Positions 3,780 through 35,802 of a stretch of DNA of 38,895 bases are shown here, piece by piece. The stretch is taken from assembly GCA_026413765.1 (NCBI GenBank), contig JAOAKI010000014.1, forward strand, positions 1-38,895. Direction: 5' to 3'. This stretch comes from Microcaldota archaeon (lineage in GTDB: Archaea > Micrarchaeota > Micrarchaeia > Anstonellales > Anstonellaceae). Every line of letters begins with the position of its first letter. The stretch's first letter is position 1. The notes below the pieces were generated by a model. The model saw nothing but the letters and a program-made list of their open reading frames with translations, ran no database searches and was not told the origin of the DNA. The translations under genes and the position numbers were made by a program.

Positions 3780-4268
3780 GTGTTTGGGGAAATTTTCTAT
3801 CCGAGGCAGGTTGTGCTTGTCACTGCGGCGACAAGCGAAAAATCGAATGTCACTGCAGTGGAATGGTTTATGCCAGTAGCGCAAAAGCCGCCAATCTTGG
3901 CGATTTCTCTTTCAAACAGCTCGCTGACGCTTGACCTGATTTGCACCTCGCTTGAGTTTGCGGTCGCGGTGCCAACCGAGAAGATGAAGGAGCAGGTGCT
4001 TTTGTGCGGCATGACTTCAGGCAAGTTCATCGACAAATTCGCAGAGACAAAAATTTCCACCATGAAGGCAAAAAAAATCTCTGCGCCTCTGATTGCGGAT
4101 GCTGCAGCCAACCTTGAGTGCAAAGTGAGATATTATTCAACGCAAGGCGACTACACGATAGTGCTGGGGGAAGTGGTTGAGGCGCACTTCTCAAAGTCAA
4201 GCGATGAGCCGCTTCTTTTCAACAAGGGAGGAAAAGAGCTTTTCGGGTTGAAAAAAGATCAGCTGTAA
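3780..4268 (+). CDS. Flavin reductase-like / flavoredoxin-family FMN-binding protein
   Basis: A 162-aa protein with the split-barrel flavin reductase fold pattern: YPRQVVLVTAATSEKSNVTAVEW near the N-terminus, PPILAISLSNSSLTLDL, a conserved region around EFAVAVPTEKM, and GKFIDKFAETKIS followed by APLI..AAANLECKV. This order is typical of flavoredoxin/DIM6-NTAB family proteins that bind FMN and pass electrons from NAD(P)H or ferredoxin. The true partner cannot be deduced. GTG start at 3780, leaderless from the shared TATA box at 3748-3757. The last 10 bp overlap the convergent gene. Confidence 0.85.
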   Translation: MFGEIFYPRQVVLVTAATSEKSNVTAVEWFMPVAQKPPILAISLSNSSLTLDLICTSLEFAVAVPTEKMKEQVLLCGMTSGKFIDKFAETKISTMKAKKISAPLIADAAANLECKVRYYSTQGDYTIVLGEVVEAHFSKSSDEPLLFNKGGKELFGLKKDQL

Positions 4269-5521
4269 TGGCCGCACTCAAACCAGTCATAAAGCCTTGA
4301 GACGGTTTTGTAAGAATAGCAGCAAGGAATCTCTTCGCAAGCGTAAGGGAAGTCCATCGGGTAGGCGTGGCCTTGCGCACCCCTCGGCTGCGTGCATTCA
4401 GTGTCAGCAAACTCTATATAGTGCACGCGGTAGAGCGCGGCGTTCAGCTGCTGGCAGAATTTTGATGGCGGAAAGCCTTGGCTTGAATTGTAGCGCGAAT
4501 AGCTTGCAAACTGCTGGATAGGAGCAGGGAGGCTGCTGTTTCTTGCCTCTGTCTGGTTTGGCGGCGAAGGCGGAGTGGTGGTGTTCTTTTGGGCTGAAAC
4601 GTTGGGCGTTTCGGTCTTGTTTTGCGCCCTTGGCGCAGCGGATGCGTTCGGCCTTGTGACGTTTGGTGAAGGTTGGGTGATGACAACGGGCTTTTTGAGG
4701 GTAGTTGCGTTTTTAGTGGCGTTTTTCTTTTCTGCCTCAAGTTTGGATAAGTTGATGTAGCTTGGCTGCTCTGGCTGCTTTTCTGACTGCTGCTGGAAGA
4801 GGAAGAAAGCTGCGATCAGCAGCAAAGCAACTGCGGCAAGGGCAAGCGGGAGGGCGCTTTTTTTCGGCTGAATTGACGATATTGCGGCCGCCAGATTGGA
4901 AAAGGCGGGGTTTTTGGCAAACTCCTCGCTTCCTGGCTTTTGAGGCGGAGGTGGCTGCTTTTGTGGCGGAAGGGCAGATGAAGGCGGCGGCTGCTGGCTG
5001 GAAAACGAAATTGTGACAGTCGGAGTAGTCGCAATCCAAGGCGGAACTGCGGAATATTGCGAAAATTGCAATGAGGACTGCTTTTGTGTCTGGGCCTGCT
5101 CAACCGAAGATAGAGGCTTGCTTTCTTGCTGAGGAGCGGCATGCTGCGAAGGCTTCTTGAATAGGTTTGAAAGGAAGCTGAGGGGGGATTTGAGGGGTTG
5201 TGCTGCTTGCTGTGGCGAAGGCGCGGCTGGCTTCTGTGCCTGGCTGTCGGTCGCTTGCGGCACAGGCTGCATTGTTGGCTGCTGAGCAGAGGCTGAAGTC
5301 TGCTGCATAACCGATGAAGGCTGAGGTTGTGGTGTGGGTTGTTGCTGCGGCTGCAGCAGGCTTTGCGACTGGAGGAAATTGGGGTCGTCTATCCTTCGGA
5401 AGGCTGCCTCGACTTTTTCTTTTTTCCATCCGACCGAACACAGCGCGCGCATGATTTGCTCTTTGGTCCTGCCGCGCTCACGCGAACGAAGAATGTAATT
5501 GATCAGTTCCTCGTCGCCCAT
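4259..5521 (-). CDS. Q/P-rich single-pass membrane protein with cysteine-rich exodomain
   Basis: A 420-aa protein of four parts. (1) Residues 1-46: a compact helical domain (GDEELINYILRSRERGRT..) ending in a GWKKEKVEAAFRRI motif, a module common at the N-terminus of archaeal membrane proteins. (2) Residues about 50-220: a low-complexity cytosolic linker dominated by Gln, Pro, Ala and Ser. (3) One transmembrane helix near 226-243 (LALAAVALLLIAAFFLF). (4) An Asn/Thr/Ser/Pro-rich outer stalk with about ten N-x-S/T sequons, then a roughly 75-aa domain with six cysteines (FCQQL, DTECTQP, YACEEIPCCY, WFECGHYS). The topology suggests an inside-anchored surface protein. I recognise no family. It shares a TATA box with dtdA at 5551-5560; its 5' leader would be about 10 nt. 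Confidence 0.85.
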   Translation of the reverse strand: MGDEELINYILRSRERGRTKEQIMRALCSVGWKKEKVEAAFRRIDDPNFLQSQSLLQPQQQPTPQPQPSSVMQQTSASAQQPTMQPVPQATDSQAQKPAAPSPQQAAQPLKSPLSFLSNLFKKPSQHAAPQQESKPLSSVEQAQTQKQSSLQFSQYSAVPPWIATTPTVTISFSSQQPPPSSALPPQKQPPPPQKPGSEEFAKNPAFSNLAAAISSIQPKKSALPLALAAVALLLIAAFFLFQQQSEKQPEQPSYINLSKLEAEKKNATKNATTLKKPVVITQPSPNVTRPNASAAPRAQNKTETPNVSAQKNTTTPPSPPNQTEARNSSLPAPIQQFASYSRYNSSQGFPPSKFCQQLNAALYRVHYIEFADTECTQPRGAQGHAYPMDFPYACEEIPCCYSYKTVSRLYDWFECGHYS

Positions 5522-9889: not shown

Positions 9890-11074
9890 TTATGGCTGAA
9901 CCCACTCAATTTCATAATATTCGTAGCGCGAGCCTGGAAGCTCTATTCTTTTTACCGCATAATAGGTTACAGAAGTCTCGCGGTCGCAAATTGCAAGCAA
10001 TAGCTCAAGGCCGATTCGTCTGCATTGCGAGATTGCTTCAGCAAGCTCTTCTCCTCCCAAATATTCCTCTTCTGAAAGCGAAAACATCAGGTATTTTGGC
10101 TTGCCTGTCTTGGGGTTTTCGGCCGCGCTTCCTTTGCGATGGTACAAAAGAAAATCAAGAGTGGTGAAAAACTGGTCGCGTGGCTCTTTTTGCTTTGATT
10201 TTGCCTTTCCAGGTATTGCAAGCACGAACGTCTTTTTGACCGAATGCGCAACCCGGATTGCCCTTGCCCACTCGGAAATCAAGAGCTTCGAGGCGCGCGG
10301 GAAGCAGTGGATCACGTGCTTGCTGTGCACCCACTCTTTGCCCGACTTCACAGGCGAGGCGCCAGGGAAATAGAGGCGGAAATGAGTGCCGAACTTGAAG
10401 CCTGTCTTGAGGACGAAACCTTTGGTGCGCCAATCTTCATACACTTCGTACATCTCCTCAAAGTATTTGTGCTTCTTTTTCGCTGCGCGAATCACATCTT
10501 CTTCGGATGCGTTCGTAAGCTTGAGGCTCGCATGGCGCATCAGGAAAATGGTTTCATAAGCATCGAGTTTGGAGAGCCTGCCGCGCTGCTCCGCTTTATA
10601 AGAGCCAAATTGCCCAAACCAATAGCGCTCGTAAAGCTCCTTGCCCGCCGCTTCGTCATCTATTATGGCCCATAAATCGTTTGGATAGAAAGTGGCAAGA
10701 AGAGAATATTTGTCAAGAGAAAGCGGGTTGATTGGATATCTTTTTGAGCTGTTTTGCGAGTATTTCTCGCAGATTTCTGAAACCTGCCTTGCTATTAAGC
10801 CGCGGTCGCGCCAATCCTTGTATGTGAAATAGCGCGCCATTTGCTTTTTGCCCTTGAAATTGGCTGCCAGCTGGTTGAACTTGTATTCGTTGAGCGCGTT
10901 GTCGAAGCACCTTGCATTCCTGATGTCCATAAGATAGAGCGCTTCCTCCAGGAAAAGATAAAGCGTGCCTTTCTTCATATATCCATAATGCCCATTGACC
11001 AGCGAGGAGACTGCCTCCGGTTGTGAGACTGAAAGGCTCTTCTTCTTTTGGTCAAACAGGATTTGGATGGACAT
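9890..11074 (-). CDS. endA: tRNA-splicing endonuclease, three-unit (epsilon-2) type
   Basis: Cuts bulge-helix-bulge structures in pre-tRNA to release introns. From ATG 11074 the protein has 394 aa, about twice a simple archaeal EndA. Three units can be read: an N-terminal alpha-N unit (LEEALYLMDIR to YKDWRDRGLIARQ, about 40-100); a catalytic alpha unit (SKLDAYETIFLMR, YEVYEDWRTKGFVLKTGFKFG, FRLY, HSKHVIH, AIRVAHSVKKTFVLAI, about 125-290); and a beta-C unit (KYLMFSLSEEEYL to ETSVTYYAVKRI, about 305-380). The catalytic triad is present: Tyr235, His250 and Lys281. This alpha-N/alpha/beta-C order is the layout described for ARMAN endonucleases. GGAGGTG with 6-nt spacing picks ATG 11074; the GTG at 11083 is part of that site. 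Taw1 is divergent. Confidence 0.93.
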   Translation of the reverse strand: MSIQILFDQKKKSLSVSQPEAVSSLVNGHYGYMKKGTLYLFLEEALYLMDIRNARCFDNALNEYKFNQLAANFKGKKQMARYFTYKDWRDRGLIARQVSEICEKYSQNSSKRYPINPLSLDKYSLLATFYPNDLWAIIDDEAAGKELYERYWFGQFGSYKAEQRGRLSKLDAYETIFLMRHASLKLTNASEEDVIRAAKKKHKYFEEMYEVYEDWRTKGFVLKTGFKFGTHFRLYFPGASPVKSGKEWVHSKHVIHCFPRASKLLISEWARAIRVAHSVKKTFVLAIPGKAKSKQKEPRDQFFTTLDFLLYHRKGSAAENPKTGKPKYLMFSLSEEEYLGGEELAEAISQCRRIGLELLLAICDRETSVTYYAVKRIELPGSRYEYYEIEWVQP

Positions 11075-11152: not shown

Positions 11153-11169
11153 ACAGAGTGGAAGAAGAG

Positions 11170-12231
11170 ATGGAAACGATGGCAAGAGGAAAGGGGAGGG
11201 AAAAATATTTCGAAAAGGTCAGGGAAAAAAACAAAAGCATCCCTGATGAAGTCTTGCGAATACTGCTTAGGCAAAAATACCATATTGCAGGCGAGCACTC
11301 TGCCGCCAAAATATGCCATTGGACGCATTCTGTGCTGACGGGCGGCATCGGATGCTATAAAAGCAAGTTCTATGGGATAGCGTCGCACAGGTGCATCCAG
11401 TGCACGCCTGTACTGCTTTTCTGCAACCACGCTTGCGTTTTTTGCTGGAGAATAATGCCTGAAAAGAGCCTCAAATTTGAGGACATGCCAGCAAAGCATT
11501 TCAAGTGGGACGAGCCTGAAAAAATTGCAGACTGGATTGTAGAGGCGCAAAAAAGCATCATTTCAGGATATGGCGGCAACCCAAAAGTGGACAAAAGAAG
11601 ATATGAGGAAGCGCTCAATCCGCTGCATGTTGCGCTTTCTTTGACAGGGGAGCCTGTGATTTATCCTCATTTGGAAAGGCTTATCGAAGAATTCCACAAA
11701 AGAAAAATGACCACTTTTCTTGTGACCAATGGGACTTTCCCAGAGCGGATTGAGAAATGGAAGACATATCCGACTCAGCTTTATGTGTCGATGGTGGCTC
11801 CAAACGAGGAAGTCTACAGGAAGGCGATTCGCCCAAAAAGCCCTATGCTTTGGAGAAAATACCTCAAAATGCTTGAGCTCATGCCAAAGATAAGCCAGAA
11901 AACGCGGACAGTGCTGCGCATGACCCTTACGCGAGGAGTGAATGATTCCGACCTTGAAGGCTATGCAAGGCAGATAATGGTTGCGCAGCCGCACTATGTT
12001 GAGGTCAAAAGCATGGTTTATGTCGGCGGGGCTCGCTTGCCACAGCGAGGCCTTTCCCTTTCAAGCATGCTGACAATTGAGGAGGTGGAAAAAATCGCGC
12101 AGCAACTGGCGCAGATGACAGGTTATATCATAAGCGACAAGCACGAGCTTTCGCGCGTTGTGCTTTTGTGCAAAGACAAGGAGGCTGAAAAGAACAGGAT
12201 GAAAATATGGCGGGAGAATTTGATGCCGTAG
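11170..12231 (+). CDS. taw1: 4-demethylwyosine synthase (Taw1/TYW1)
   Basis: A radical-SAM enzyme that condenses N1-methylguanosine-37 of tRNA-Phe with pyruvate carbons to make 4-demethylwyosine. From ATG 11170 it has 353 aa, matching archaeal Taw1 without the flavodoxin domain. The radical-SAM cluster motif is CNHACVFC (Cx3Cx2C), followed by the Taw1-specific W-R and, upstream, additional cysteines (ICHWT, GCYKSKFYG, RCIQCTP) that hold the second iron-sulfur cluster. ALSLTGEPVIYPHL carries the G-E-P motif that contacts SAM, and LVTNGTFPE follows. Its 3' end overlaps the HAD gene by 25 bp, so the two form an operon. Confidence 0.95.
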   Translation: METMARGKGREKYFEKVREKNKSIPDEVLRILLRQKYHIAGEHSAAKICHWTHSVLTGGIGCYKSKFYGIASHRCIQCTPVLLFCNHACVFCWRIMPEKSLKFEDMPAKHFKWDEPEKIADWIVEAQKSIISGYGGNPKVDKRRYEEALNPLHVALSLTGEPVIYPHLERLIEEFHKRKMTTFLVTNGTFPERIEKWKTYPTQLYVSMVAPNEEVYRKAIRPKSPMLWRKYLKMLELMPKISQKTRTVLRMTLTRGVNDSDLEGYARQIMVAQPHYVEVKSMVYVGGARLPQRGLSLSSMLTIEEVEKIAQQLAQMTGYIISDKHELSRVVLLCKDKEAEKNRMKIWRENLMP

Positions 12232-18739: not shown

Positions 18740-19231
18740 TTATCTTGCAAGGAGCCTGCGGACGAGGACGGCGACGAACGATGACCTGCCTCCAAAATCC
18801 CTTCTTTGGCTTTCGCTTCTGTAGCACAGAGGGCAGATTATGCTGCCGCCAGGAAGAATCTTGAAATGCTCGGTTCTCTTCTTGCAGAACGAGCAAAAAA
18901 CCTCGATTCTCTTTCCTGCTGCGCAGTGCGTATGGGAAAGAGACTGGTCGGCAAGCTTTATTCTTTCCTGGAAAGACTCGATTTTTTGGTTGCAGAACCT
19001 GCATCTTGGTAGGAGCTCTTTGCGCTCAAGCTCGGCCGCACAATAGCTGCAATAGGGCTGGCTGCTTTTTCTTTTGATTTCTTCCGAGCGAATGCGCGTT
19101 CCGCACCTTGAGCAGAATGCGACCGACTCTGCGCTTTTTCTGACATAGCAAGGAATGCAAAGCATTCCCCTTGGGTAATAAGCAGAATCCGACTCTTCGA
19201 CCTCTACGCCGCAAGTGAGGCAGTGTTGCAT
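18740..19231 (-). CDS. Multi-zinc-ribbon protein
   Basis: A 163-aa protein with seven CxxC knuckles: CLTC, CIPC, CSRC, CSYC, CRFC, CSFC and CPLC, plus a Thr-His-Cys near residue 98. They pair as about four treble-clef or ribbon zinc sites in series, separated by 15-25 residues. The C-terminus is a basic, hydrophobic tail (SSFVAVLVRRLLAR). No enzyme motif is visible; RNA, DNA or protein binding is probable. It lies 9 bp after the EndA-like gene and shares its operon, so a role in RNA processing or replication is possible but unproven. Confidence 0.83.
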   Translation of the reverse strand: MQHCLTCGVEVEESDSAYYPRGMLCIPCYVRKSAESVAFCSRCGTRIRSEEIKRKSSQPYCSYCAAELERKELLPRCRFCNQKIESFQERIKLADQSLSHTHCAAGKRIEVFCSFCKKRTEHFKILPGGSIICPLCYRSESQRRDFGGRSSFVAVLVRRLLAR

Positions 19232-19240
19232 AAGGCTCGC

Positions 19241-19738
19241 CTAAAAATTATAAACTGAAATTTTGTAGAATTTGAAGCTTTTGTGGTCTCCACACGCCAC
19301 AATCAACTCCATTCTTGCTCGATGTGCGATTTTCACTTCCTCTTCTATTGACTTCAGCTTCGGCTCCCTGCCAGGCAAAAGGCAGACAAGATGCGAAGGC
19401 CTCTCCTCGTCCCTCCCTATGCCAGGCGCATAGACGCGGAAATATTTCAAGCTTTTGGAAAATAGACGAATTTGCCTTCCTGTTGAGCGTATATGCGAAT
19501 AGACTGCAAACGCGAACCGAAACAGCTTGTCTTTCCTTTCTTGCCTTTTGACAAAACTTTCCAGCGTGCTGCCCTCAAATGAAGTCTTCCCTATGCTTAC
19601 AAGATATGCTGCCTCGAGAGGGTGGAAAAGCGTCTGGTCGCCAAAGGCAAGCAAGCCAAACCCAGCCTCCACAAAAAGGCTGTGTAGATTCGAATCTTGC
19701 TCGAAAAACATATTCCTCTTCTTATATTCTGCAAGCAT
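19241..19738 (-). CDS. EndA-like protein, probable non-catalytic splicing endonuclease subunit
   Basis: A 165-aa homologue of archaeal EndA alpha/beta subunits. The N-terminal domain has LFHPLEAAYLVSIGKTSF, followed by KDKLFRFAFAVYSHIRSTGRQIRL in place of the usual VYxDLRxRGYxVKTG. The C-terminal domain has YFRVY, PSHLVCL and VKIAHRARMELIVACGDH...FKFYKI. Aligning these with the full-length endonuclease at 9890-11074, catalytic Tyr (Tyr103) and His (His116) positions are kept, but the catalytic Lys is Met143. It should therefore be inactive alone, as for structural beta subunits of heterotetrameric enzymes. The start is ATG 19738, 4 bp after the rfcL stop; a longer frame would overlap rfcL. 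Frame and length are intact, so it is not a pseudogene. Confidence 0.85.
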   Translation of the reverse strand: MLAEYKKRNMFFEQDSNLHSLFVEAGFGLLAFGDQTLFHPLEAAYLVSIGKTSFEGSTLESFVKRQERKDKLFRFAFAVYSHIRSTGRQIRLFSKSLKYFRVYAPGIGRDEERPSHLVCLLPGREPKLKSIEEEVKIAHRARMELIVACGDHKSFKFYKISVYNF

Positions 19739-19742
19739 GCAA

Positions 19743-20888
19743 TCACTTCGAAAGAAATTCTTTTTCTTCTTCGCTAAAGCCAAATTCGGGCGGAATTTTG
19801 CCTTTCGCCGCAAGCGGGAAAAGAATCCACAGGTAAGATTGCGCTGCTGAAGGACCGCAGTGGCATGCTTTGCCGACCTTTTTCAGGATGGACTTCCTGA
19901 GGGCGCGTTTTGATTTGGTGGCGCTCATCTCTTTCAGAAACGAAGGAAACTCAAGCCTGCAGCTTGCGATTGGCGCAAGCTTGGCGACGGCCACTCCACA
20001 GGAGGCAAGGTCGGTTGAATACCTAAGATATCCATAATATTGGTTGCGGCTTATCCTGCCGTCAAAAACATCCGCCTTTGAGAGGCTCTCATAAGCGTCC
20101 GCAATCTCGAATGGCTTTGAATAGCAAATGGGGATGTTGTGGGCTATCCACAGCTTCAGCGTATCGTGGTCAACATCAGCAAAAAAAGCGGCTTTCCTTG
20201 CTGTCGAATAATCTTCGGCCGAAAATATTTGAAGCAGCGATTCAAAAATTCCCTTCTGGATATCTCTTGCCGAGCTGAAATTCCTTGCCTCAAGGTCGTT
20301 GAGGGCGGCGCGGACATCTCCTGCGCAATTAGAGGCGATCGCTGAGATTTGCTCTTGCGTTATCTTTATCTTGTGTTTTGCAGCAATGCCTGAAAGGAAC
20401 TTGGCTACTGTGGATGGGTATGCTCTTCTAAGCTGAATTGGCTGGCAAACGCTTCGAATCGGCTGTATCTTTTTGTCATATAAGTCAAGCGCAGTCAGGA
20501 TGATGGGCTGTGCTGGCGACGCAAGGATAGGCGCAAGCGCAGATATTCCGCCTTTGTCTTCGCTTGCAGAAATAGCGTCGACGTCGTCTATCAAGATGAG
20601 CCTTTTTTTGCCGTAAAGAGAGCCAAAATTGAGACTTGCAGAAACGACCGACTTGATGACACTTTCGTCCCTGTTTTCAGAGGAGTTGAACTCGAGCATC
20701 TCCCAGCCGAACTGGGCTGCAAGCGCATGCGCTATAGCGGTCTTGCCAGTCCCTGGCGGACCCCAAAGCAGCAGGGGCTTTTGCGGAGAGCCTTTCTGCC
20801 ATCTTTCCGCCCACTGAAGAATTTGGCTTATTGCTTGCGTGTTTCCTATTATTTCGGAAAGCGAGGCGGGCTTATGCGCGCTTAGCAT
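19743..20888 (-). CDS. rfcL: Replication factor C large subunit
   Basis: The clamp-loader subunit that, with RfcS, loads PCNA at primer ends. Of 381 aa. AAA+ motifs are Walker A GPPGTGKT (43-50), Walker B LILIDDVDAI (97-106), and RSVCQPIQLRR near the SRC/sensor region; the C-terminal collar part is short and rich in Lys/Ser. No Q-x-x-hydrophobic-x-x-F-F PCNA-binding box is visible at the C-terminus, which is unusual for archaeal RfcL. ATG 20888 is about 27 bp from the GATTTAATAC box at 20911-20920 (leaderless). First gene of a six-gene minus-strand run. Confidence 0.94.
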   Translation of the reverse strand: MLSAHKPASLSEIIGNTQAISQILQWAERWQKGSPQKPLLLWGPPGTGKTAIAHALAAQFGWEMLEFNSSENRDESVIKSVVSASLNFGSLYGKKRLILIDDVDAISASEDKGGISALAPILASPAQPIILTALDLYDKKIQPIRSVCQPIQLRRAYPSTVAKFLSGIAAKHKIKITQEQISAIASNCAGDVRAALNDLEARNFSSARDIQKGIFESLLQIFSAEDYSTARKAAFFADVDHDTLKLWIAHNIPICYSKPFEIADAYESLSKADVFDGRISRNQYYGYLRYSTDLASCGVAVAKLAPIASCRLEFPSFLKEMSATKSKRALRKSILKKVGKACHCGPSAAQSYLWILFPLAAKGKIPPEFGFSEEEKEFLSK

Positions 20889-34630: not shown

Positions 34631-35374
34631 TCACCCAATCTGCATCCGCTTTCTTTGCTTTTCTATCTTTTCTATCACTGAATAGGCGGCAAGCGCGGAT
34701 GTTTTCGGGTTCTGCTTGAAGGCAAGATTGTCAAACAAAAATTCCATCCTGCCGCCGCTCCAAGCGACAGTGATGCGATGGACATTGCTTTTCAGCCCAG
34801 GATCGCTTATTATCCTCACCTTGGTCTTCTTGAACCCCACGCCTGCAAGCGCAAGCGTCGCCGCCACATTTACATTCTGGGGAAATAGCCTGCAAGCATC
34901 CTTCGCATTCCCCTCAAAAACTACCGTCCGGAAAGCATCTGCCCTTCCAAGCGCATGCGGCGGCTTGGCAGTCTCAAGCACCACTTCGCGCGCCTCCGCT
35001 GCAACTGCAGCAATTGCATCCAGGCCGCCTATTGCGCCAGAAGGAATCAAGACGCGATGCCCATATTTTTCCGCATATTTTTCGACTCTCTGCAAAATTT
35101 TCTGCTTGGCAAGGGCGCCGACAGAAAGTATCATCAAATCCGAGTATTTCAGGCAGCCTGCAAGCTTGCCAACTGCTTTCTGGTTTGCAGCCTCAATCAC
35201 CAGCTCAACGCCTCCGCATTTTTTTGGCAATTTGGCAAAAAGAGGGCATTTTAGCCCAATCTTTTTCATTGTCTTGCTGACATCCCTTACGTCAACAACC
35301 CAGGCTATCTTTTCTTTCATCTTTTTTGCGATATGGCTTCCTATCGCTCCTAACCCAACCAATCCTATTTTCAT
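34631..35374 (-). CDS. nadX: L-aspartate dehydrogenase
   Basis: Oxidises L-aspartate to iminoaspartate with NAD(P)+, the first step of NAD biosynthesis in many archaea. Of 247 aa. The Rossmann loop is GLVGLGAIGSHIA (about 4-16); other family segments are LVIEAANQKAV, ILSVGALA, LIPSGAIGGLDA, FPQNVNVAATLALAGVG and a C-terminal NLAFKQNPKTSALAAYSVI. ATG 35374 overlaps the metallopeptidase stop in an ATGA, so the two are coupled. The upstream in-frame extension to 35407 is rejected for that reason. Confidence 0.93.
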   Translation of the reverse strand: MKIGLVGLGAIGSHIAKKMKEKIAWVVDVRDVSKTMKKIGLKCPLFAKLPKKCGGVELVIEAANQKAVGKLAGCLKYSDLMILSVGALAKQKILQRVEKYAEKYGHRVLIPSGAIGGLDAIAAVAAEAREVVLETAKPPHALGRADAFRTVVFEGNAKDACRLFPQNVNVAATLALAGVGFKKTKVRIISDPGLKSNVHRITVAWSGGRMEFLFDNLAFKQNPKTSALAAYSVIEKIEKQRKRMQIG

Positions 35375-35784
35375 CGCACTTCGCCTTCCTTGGACTTCTG
35401 CTTGCAATATATCTTGTAAAGCCTTTCAACATTTCTCCTGTCAATTTTTATCCTGCCGTTGTGCGGCCTGAGCGCGCCAGAAAAATTTTTTGGTATGTGC
35501 AGCAATTCGTGTATGAGAACCTTCGTCTTTTCCTCCTCAGGCAGCTTGTCGTAGTGCGGGCTTACCACCTCGATGATATAAAATGCCCCAACCGACAAAG
35601 CCACCTGCCATATCTTCGGGAGATTCCATATTCGCGCATAAGCATTTGCTTTCGAGCCTTCGGTGCGCATGCATATTATTCTGAATTGGTTTATGTGCGC
35701 AAGCTCATTGTTTTCCGACCTAGAAAAGACAGCAAGGATGTCCTCTAGCTTCTTTTGCACGTCTTCCGCAGGCATTGGCCGCAT
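35371..35784 (-). CDS. Small putative zinc metallopeptidase
   Basis: A 137-aa protein with the zinc motif HELLH (His92-His96) in KVLIHELLHIPKNF and a third candidate ligand, His108, in ALRPHNG. The first 75 residues contain two strands and HINQFRIICMRTEGSKANAYARIW. It resembles short archaeal and phage metallopeptidases of the HExxH-IP type. No signal peptide, so probably cytosolic. ATG 35784 is 24 bp from a GTATAAAAGG box (leaderless). First gene of the nadX run. Confidence 0.85.
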   Translation of the reverse strand: MRPMPAEDVQKKLEDILAVFSRSENNELAHINQFRIICMRTEGSKANAYARIWNLPKIWQVALSVGAFYIIEVVSPHYDKLPEEEKTKVLIHELLHIPKNFSGALRPHNGRIKIDRRNVERLYKIYCKQKSKEGEVR

Positions 35785-35802
35785 GAATCAATTAATGCAA
35801 TT

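Follow-up and report, generated by a model that had tools for sequence, protein, structure and literature searches.

The window, that is, the whole stretch of 38,895 nucleotides that was analysed, carries two genes of the tRNA splicing endonuclease (EndA) family. One encodes a complete epsilon-type enzyme and the other a short homologue with a degenerate active site, hereafter called pseudo-EndA. The features to which the text refers are the following:

9890-11074, minus strand: complete epsilon-type EndA, 394 aa, with the triad Y235/H250/K281 and the ASL residues Y159-K160 intact
18740-19231, minus strand: zinc-ribbon partner protein, 163 aa, with paired CxxC motifs, conserved directly downstream of pseudo-EndA
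19241-19738, minus strand: pseudo-EndA, 165 aa, with an NTD at about residues 1-60 and an EndA catalytic-type CTD at about residues 73-165
19271-19294, minus strand: L10-equivalent loop of pseudo-EndA, residues 149-156 (CGDHKSFK), not acidic
19310-19312, minus strand: Met143 codon, at the catalytic Lys position in alignments
19391-19393, minus strand: His116 codon, three residues past the catalytic His position; a variable site, His in 3 of 70 orthologues
19400-19402, minus strand: Arg113 codon, at the catalytic His position (H251 of ARMAN-2 EndA, H250 of the window's epsilon EndA)
19430-19432, minus strand: Tyr103 codon, aligned with the catalytic Tyr (Y236 of ARMAN-2 EndA)
19743-20888, minus strand: rfcL, replication factor C large subunit, directly upstream of pseudo-EndA in the window's genus only

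The pseudo-EndA reading frame is intact (165 codons from the ATG) and tightly packed between its neighbours, its ATG lying 4 bp after the rfcL stop and its end 9 bp before the ATG of the zinc-ribbon gene. The RfcL encoded upstream, at 381 aa, is short beside the NCBIfam RfcL models, which span about 405-517 positions. A plus-strand gene (11158-12231) for a TYW1/Taw1-like radical-SAM wyosine protein (PF08608) faces the epsilon EndA gene head to head, and this gene pair is kept in the window's genus. The wyosine gene product acts at position 37 of tRNA-Phe, which adjoins the canonical intron site.

Several comparisons agree with the original prediction that the 165-aa frame encodes an EndA homologue. 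The window protein scores below the 27-bit gathering threshold of PF01974 (E = 6.7e-5, 23.3 bits), and the family is matched by all 27 of the pseudo-EndA orthologues compared with it (best E = 7.4e-13). A phmmer comparison with PDB sequences pairs it with the A. fulgidus EndA at 1.5e-13, and a profile built from 27 orthologues matches the M. jannaschii EndA at 4e-26 and also finds TSEN54 (E = 1e-5). An AlphaFold2 model built from five sequences has a mean pLDDT of 68; the CTD mostly reaches 66-91 per ten residues and the N-terminal 36 residues are poorly modelled. The best PDB match of this model of the protein alone is the M. jannaschii EndA (1a79, E = 2.3e-8, TM 0.65), and EndA/TSEN chains account for all of its 40 best PDB matches; it also resembles the structural subunit of N. 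equitans (E = 2.7e-7) and has weak matches to Hjc resolvases. Given these sequence, profile and model matches, the protein's place in the EndA / tRNA-intron endonuclease superfamily (PF01974, PF02778) and its EndA fold are secure. The complete epsilon EndA announced for the same window is likewise there, matching the ARMAN-2 enzyme (4fz2) at E = 1e-130. The two window proteins share 22% identity over 114 aa, and pseudo-EndA is a single unit of 165 aa, lacking both the three fused units and the ASL Tyr-Lys of the epsilon enzyme.

The state of the active site was examined in 70 aligned orthologues. In ARMAN-2 the catalytic triad is Y236, H251 and K282 (PMC12397907, PMC6379350). The alignments agree with the earlier assignment of Tyr103 to the catalytic Tyr and of Met143 to the place of the catalytic Lys, but the catalytic His is not retained as His116, as had been thought. 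The segment R113-P-S-H116-L-V aligns without gaps with H-S-V-Y-L-V of the M. jannaschii EndA and with R-T-x-Y-L of the orthologues, and the wider context is concordant (DKE-H-S-V-Y-L-V in M. jannaschii, GED-R-T-x-Y-L in the orthologue consensus, DEE-R113-P-S-H116-L-V in the window protein). H251 of ARMAN-2 is the first His of its WIHSKHV motif and corresponds to R113, while H116 corresponds to the second; the counterpart of H116 is a Tyr in the M. jannaschii EndA and H253 in the window's epsilon EndA. Since the alignment to the M. jannaschii EndA and the orthologues is free of gaps, it places the catalytic His position of the window protein at R113, not at H116. Among the 70 orthologues this position holds R in 48, K in 14, E in 4, P in 2, and V and H in one each; position 143 is K in 53, L in 12 and M in 3, and position 103 is Y in 45 and H in 21. 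These counts indicate that the loss of the His is a general feature of pseudo-EndA, and that the loss of the Lys is nearly confined to the Anstonellaceae. A complete Tyr-His-Lys triad occurs in a single orthologue (1/70), and the window protein has Tyr103, Arg113 and Met143.

The losses extend beyond the triad. The TGxKxG motif, whose Lys (K228 in ARMAN-2) contacts the bulge, is kept only in the two sequences of family f17 (families are numbered here) and is found in 0 of the 68 others. The equivalent of the bulge-binding Arg of the IRxA motif, at position 136, is R in 4 of these 68. The L10 loop, by which structural units dock into a pocket of their partner, has a net charge of -3 to -4 in the EndA of M. 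jannaschii, A. fulgidus and M. kandleri, against means of +0.3 in f1, -0.5 in f7 (the Bilamarchaeaceae) and -3 in f17. As a control, all 111 aligned epsilon EndAs keep the Tyr, His and Lys, the bulge residues K227 and R274 and the ASL Tyr-Lys. The view that the window encodes, besides its self-sufficient epsilon enzyme, a further EndA homologue without catalytic function thus holds, with both the triad and TGxKxG lost in the former and the triad intact in the latter. What remains conserved on the surface of pseudo-EndA is basic and lies at the former active site (R142 in 68/70 orthologues, R84 in 66/70, R101 in 64/70 and, in most, R113), together with a C-terminal strand (F157, K159, F165). 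No metal-binding D/ExK signature is found among the conserved residues of the orthologues.

The distribution search covered the Micrarchaeota, and the 70 orthologues come from the Anstonellaceae, the Bilamarchaeaceae and a few related families. Pseudo-EndA is present in nearly all f1 and f7 genomes and in part of f8, and further in f3, f6, f10, f11, f16, f17 and f18. Among named organisms, it is carried by 'Ca. Anstonella stagnisolia' LFW-35, from the same family as the window genome, and by 'Ca. Bilamarchaeum dharawalense' LFW-283_2. Epsilon EndA alone, and no pseudo-EndA, was detected in well-completed genomes sampled from f13, f19, f20, f23 and f25, in the complete chromosome of 'Ca. Fermentimicrarchaeum limneticum', and in 'Ca. 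Burarchaeum' and 'Ca. Gugararchaeum'; for f19 and f20, large families of the same class, the absence extends over more than 100 genomes searched. The scan of named genomes was queried with epsilon EndA, the orthologue alignment being too diverse for back-translated patterns. As a single-protein query against genome contigs, pseudo-EndA gave 0 matches, and a plasmid search also gave 0. Wherever it was looked for in a genome with pseudo-EndA, epsilon EndA is present, so that the co-occurrence of both forms in related genomes extends to about 70 genomes. Two small f8 genomes of genus g23 (G036 and G043, 0.5-0.6 Mb) have no EndA of either kind at E = 1e-4, nor G036 at E = 1; they are possibly Micrarchaeota without a tRNA splicing endonuclease, or else incomplete assemblies. 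Within the window's genus, identity to the window protein is 53-59% for pseudo-EndA and 71-79% for epsilon EndA. The dN/dS is 0.09-0.14 in three pairs of close relatives (YN00), and since it is this low, it indicates that pseudo-EndA is a functional pseudo-enzyme under purifying selection.

The descent of pseudo-EndA was studied in a maximum-likelihood tree (68 sequences, 155 columns, four outside sequences), which was made by a quick method and rooted for drawing only. The pseudo-EndAs and the alpha units of the epsilon enzymes are separate, with the EndA of M. jannaschii, M. kandleri and A. fulgidus between them; the support is moderate (SH-aLRT 82 on the pseudo-EndA side and 99 on the epsilon side, 82-97 at the key forks). 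The two f17 sequences are the nearest to the outside EndAs. They also keep TGxKxG, the bulge Arg and an acidic L10, and one of them (G097) has the full triad; in its sister G098 the His is replaced by Arg. Both f17 genomes also hold an epsilon EndA, so that G097, whose short alpha-type EndA lies at 3840-4367 on the minus strand of locus L180, apparently has two active EndA types in one archaeon. Because of the tree and of these f17 copies with their motifs, one with the whole triad, it is fairly likely that pseudo-EndA derives from a stand-alone alpha-type EndA which coexisted with the epsilon enzyme before losing both catalysis and its docking into tetramers. It may also have been gained independently by transfer.

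The gene neighbourhoods bear on what the protein now does. For these, only neighbours identified by sequence or Pfam were counted, as the list of recurring neighbours includes antisense shadow ORFs. Pseudo-EndA had been described as coupled to rfcL and to a zinc-ribbon protein; the second link extends across four families, whereas the first is seen in the window's genus only. Sixteen genomes (f1, f6, f10 and f11) encode the zinc-ribbon protein at full length, its gene lying directly downstream of pseudo-EndA in 15 of them (a few bases away or overlapping) and 0.8 kb downstream in the other. Even in f11, where pseudo-EndA is cut down to its C-terminal domain, the two genes adjoin. On these gene orders the zinc-ribbon partner is a deeper link than rfcL. 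Yet it is absent from the Bilamarchaeaceae, which keep pseudo-EndA, and the partner is thus not obligatory. In 27 genomes of f1 and f7, co-directional HerA-type ATPase genes lie downstream, and an RNase HI gene lies divergently upstream in 32 f7 genomes. The f1 and f7 HerA genes seem to differ in subtype: that of f7 has a HAS barrel, and none was found in that of the window. In about 25 genomes, which belong to five families, a convergent PF18894 metallopeptidase gene follows pseudo-EndA (loci L073, L040, L042, L034 and L067 are examples). The window's own copy of this short 'putative phage metallopeptidase', with an HELLH motif, lies 16 kb from pseudo-EndA (35374-35787, minus strand). The epsilon EndA gene lies about 0.4-2.5 kb from pseudo-EndA on the same strand in two Bilamarchaeaceae genera (g13 and g19), and 8-14 kb away in the window's genus. 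A common operon of the two genes was considered for g13 and g19 and rejected, as a convergent PF18894 gene separates them in 6/6 loci where the gap was read.

Several scenarios may explain a conserved EndA homologue that has lost its catalytic residues. The one that we favour, with a confidence that is evenly balanced, is that pseudo-EndA is a conserved non-catalytic protein of EndA fold, a displaced alpha-type EndA that now binds structured RNA together with the zinc protein and does not cut it. A stand-alone alpha-type EndA would once have existed beside the epsilon enzyme and been superseded by it; catalysis and L10 docking would then have been lost and the gene retained for a non-catalytic job. 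The protein could pair with the zinc-ribbon protein in a small complex, or with itself in a homodimer joined by the conserved C-terminal strand, although this step is among the least certain. Structured RNA would be held, uncut, in the old RNA groove lined by R84, R101, R113 and R142, and the protein might serve, equally uncertainly, as a cofactor in RNA processing or of a ribonucleoprotein. Non-cutting binding of nucleic acid with the zinc protein is favoured because the conserved surface is basic at the former active site. Judged from sequence, pseudo-EndA probably grips RNA or a partner protein instead of cutting RNA and, where the zinc protein exists, probably binds nucleic acid together with it. 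Nevertheless, in several families DNA-related genes (HerA-type ATPase, RNase HI, RfcL) lie nearby, which speaks against an RNA role and would fit a DNA role. The fuller history, to which we give somewhat less than an even chance, is that an older stand-alone EndA outlived the arrival of the epsilon enzyme, gave up catalysis and docking and now makes up, together with a zinc-ribbon protein, a two-protein module that binds RNA or regulates splicing; in that case, f17 would be a living intermediate with two apparently active EndA types.

Alternatively, pseudo-EndA could serve epsilon EndA as an accessory subunit: added to the epsilon2 dimer as a non-catalytic third chain, or taking the place of one protomer, it would alter substrate choice, in the manner of TSEN54/TSEN15 or of the crenarchaeal beta subunit. 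The shared family, the constant presence of epsilon EndA in the same genomes, the nearness of the two genes in g13 and g19 and the likenesses to TSEN54, to the N. equitans structural subunit and, for the f11 copies, to the 96-aa beta subunit of P. aerophilum are all consistent with it. Nevertheless, we consider it unlikely, because a structural beta subunit needs L10, the acidity of which is lost here, and because the epsilon2 dimer, in its published architecture (PMC6379350), already provides its own alpha/betaC strand and L10-pocket contacts. Moreover, the convergent gene between the two genes in g13 and g19 contradicts a single operon, and more than 100 f19/f20 genomes use epsilon EndA where pseudo-EndA is not found. 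The extra beta-like subunit of the original prediction is thus disfavoured by an L10 charge that is about neutral in f1 and f7, and the suggestion that such a subunit widens substrate choice is weakened in turn: a wider choice needs no extra subunit, since every epsilon EndA in the control keeps the ASL Tyr-Lys. A role in DNA replication or repair with RfcL or HerA, in which the restriction-endonuclease-like fold would be used to bind DNA, is suggested by the adjacent rfcL, HerA and RNase HI genes and by the weak model matches to Hjc resolvases. We regard it as similarly unlikely, as the rfcL adjacency is limited to one genus, the HerA genes seem to be of different subtypes, the D/ExK signature is not among the conserved residues and gene neighbours are no proof of function. 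That the protein is still an active nuclease through another residue (Arg113, Tyr103 and Lys/Met143) is very improbable: many orthologues keep the Tyr or the Lys, but the window protein has neither His nor Lys, no alternative His is conserved and the bulge motif is gone. Finally, a decaying remnant without function, as the lost catalytic and docking features and the fast divergence within the genus might suggest, is hardly credible in the face of a dN/dS of about 0.1, a frame that is open in about 70 genomes across several families and a conserved partner gene.

Archaeal EndA is the classic illustration of how subunits duplicate, fuse and subfunctionalise, with four types, alpha4, alpha'2, (alpha-beta)2 and epsilon2. 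Pseudo-EndA resembles the alpha4-type enzyme of M. jannaschii (1a79) in length, in its NTD and catalytic-type CTD and in fold, and that enzyme is its best match along one whole chain unit (4e-26). It differs from it by the replacement of His by Arg and of Lys by Met, by the loss of TGxKxG and of the acidic L10, and by its coexistence with an epsilon EndA. Like the structural subunits of the (alpha-beta)2 enzymes (N. equitans NEQ261, the M. kandleri EndA-like protein, the 96-aa beta of P. aerophilum, which the CTD-only copies of f11 recall), it is a non-catalytic paralogue encoded apart from the catalytic chain. Yet its L10 is not acidic and its catalytic partner is already self-sufficient. The epsilon2 EndA of ARMAN-2 (4fz2, 9w2k) belongs to the same superfamily, but pseudo-EndA forms a separate lineage in the tree, without the ASL and without a complete triad. 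The eukaryotic TSEN54 and TSEN15 are also non-catalytic members of the superfamily, the former with a weak profile match to pseudo-EndA, which lacks the eukaryote-specific domains.

No such paralogue is mentioned in the available portions of PMC12397907, PMC6379350 and PMC4090602, and an earlier mention in Fujishima 2011 is possible. This conserved pseudo-enzyme branch of EndA is real and, in the open literature searched, apparently undescribed. It was probably overlooked because laboratory work on epsilon EndA has used the ARMAN-2 enzyme and because the more than 100 genomes searched of f19 and f20 lack the gene. None of the four types accommodates a conserved EndA member that lacks catalysis and yet is no canonical structural subunit. 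The zinc-ribbon partner gives a handle on the new function, and in family f17 the replacement of one type of splicing enzyme by another can be tested directly.
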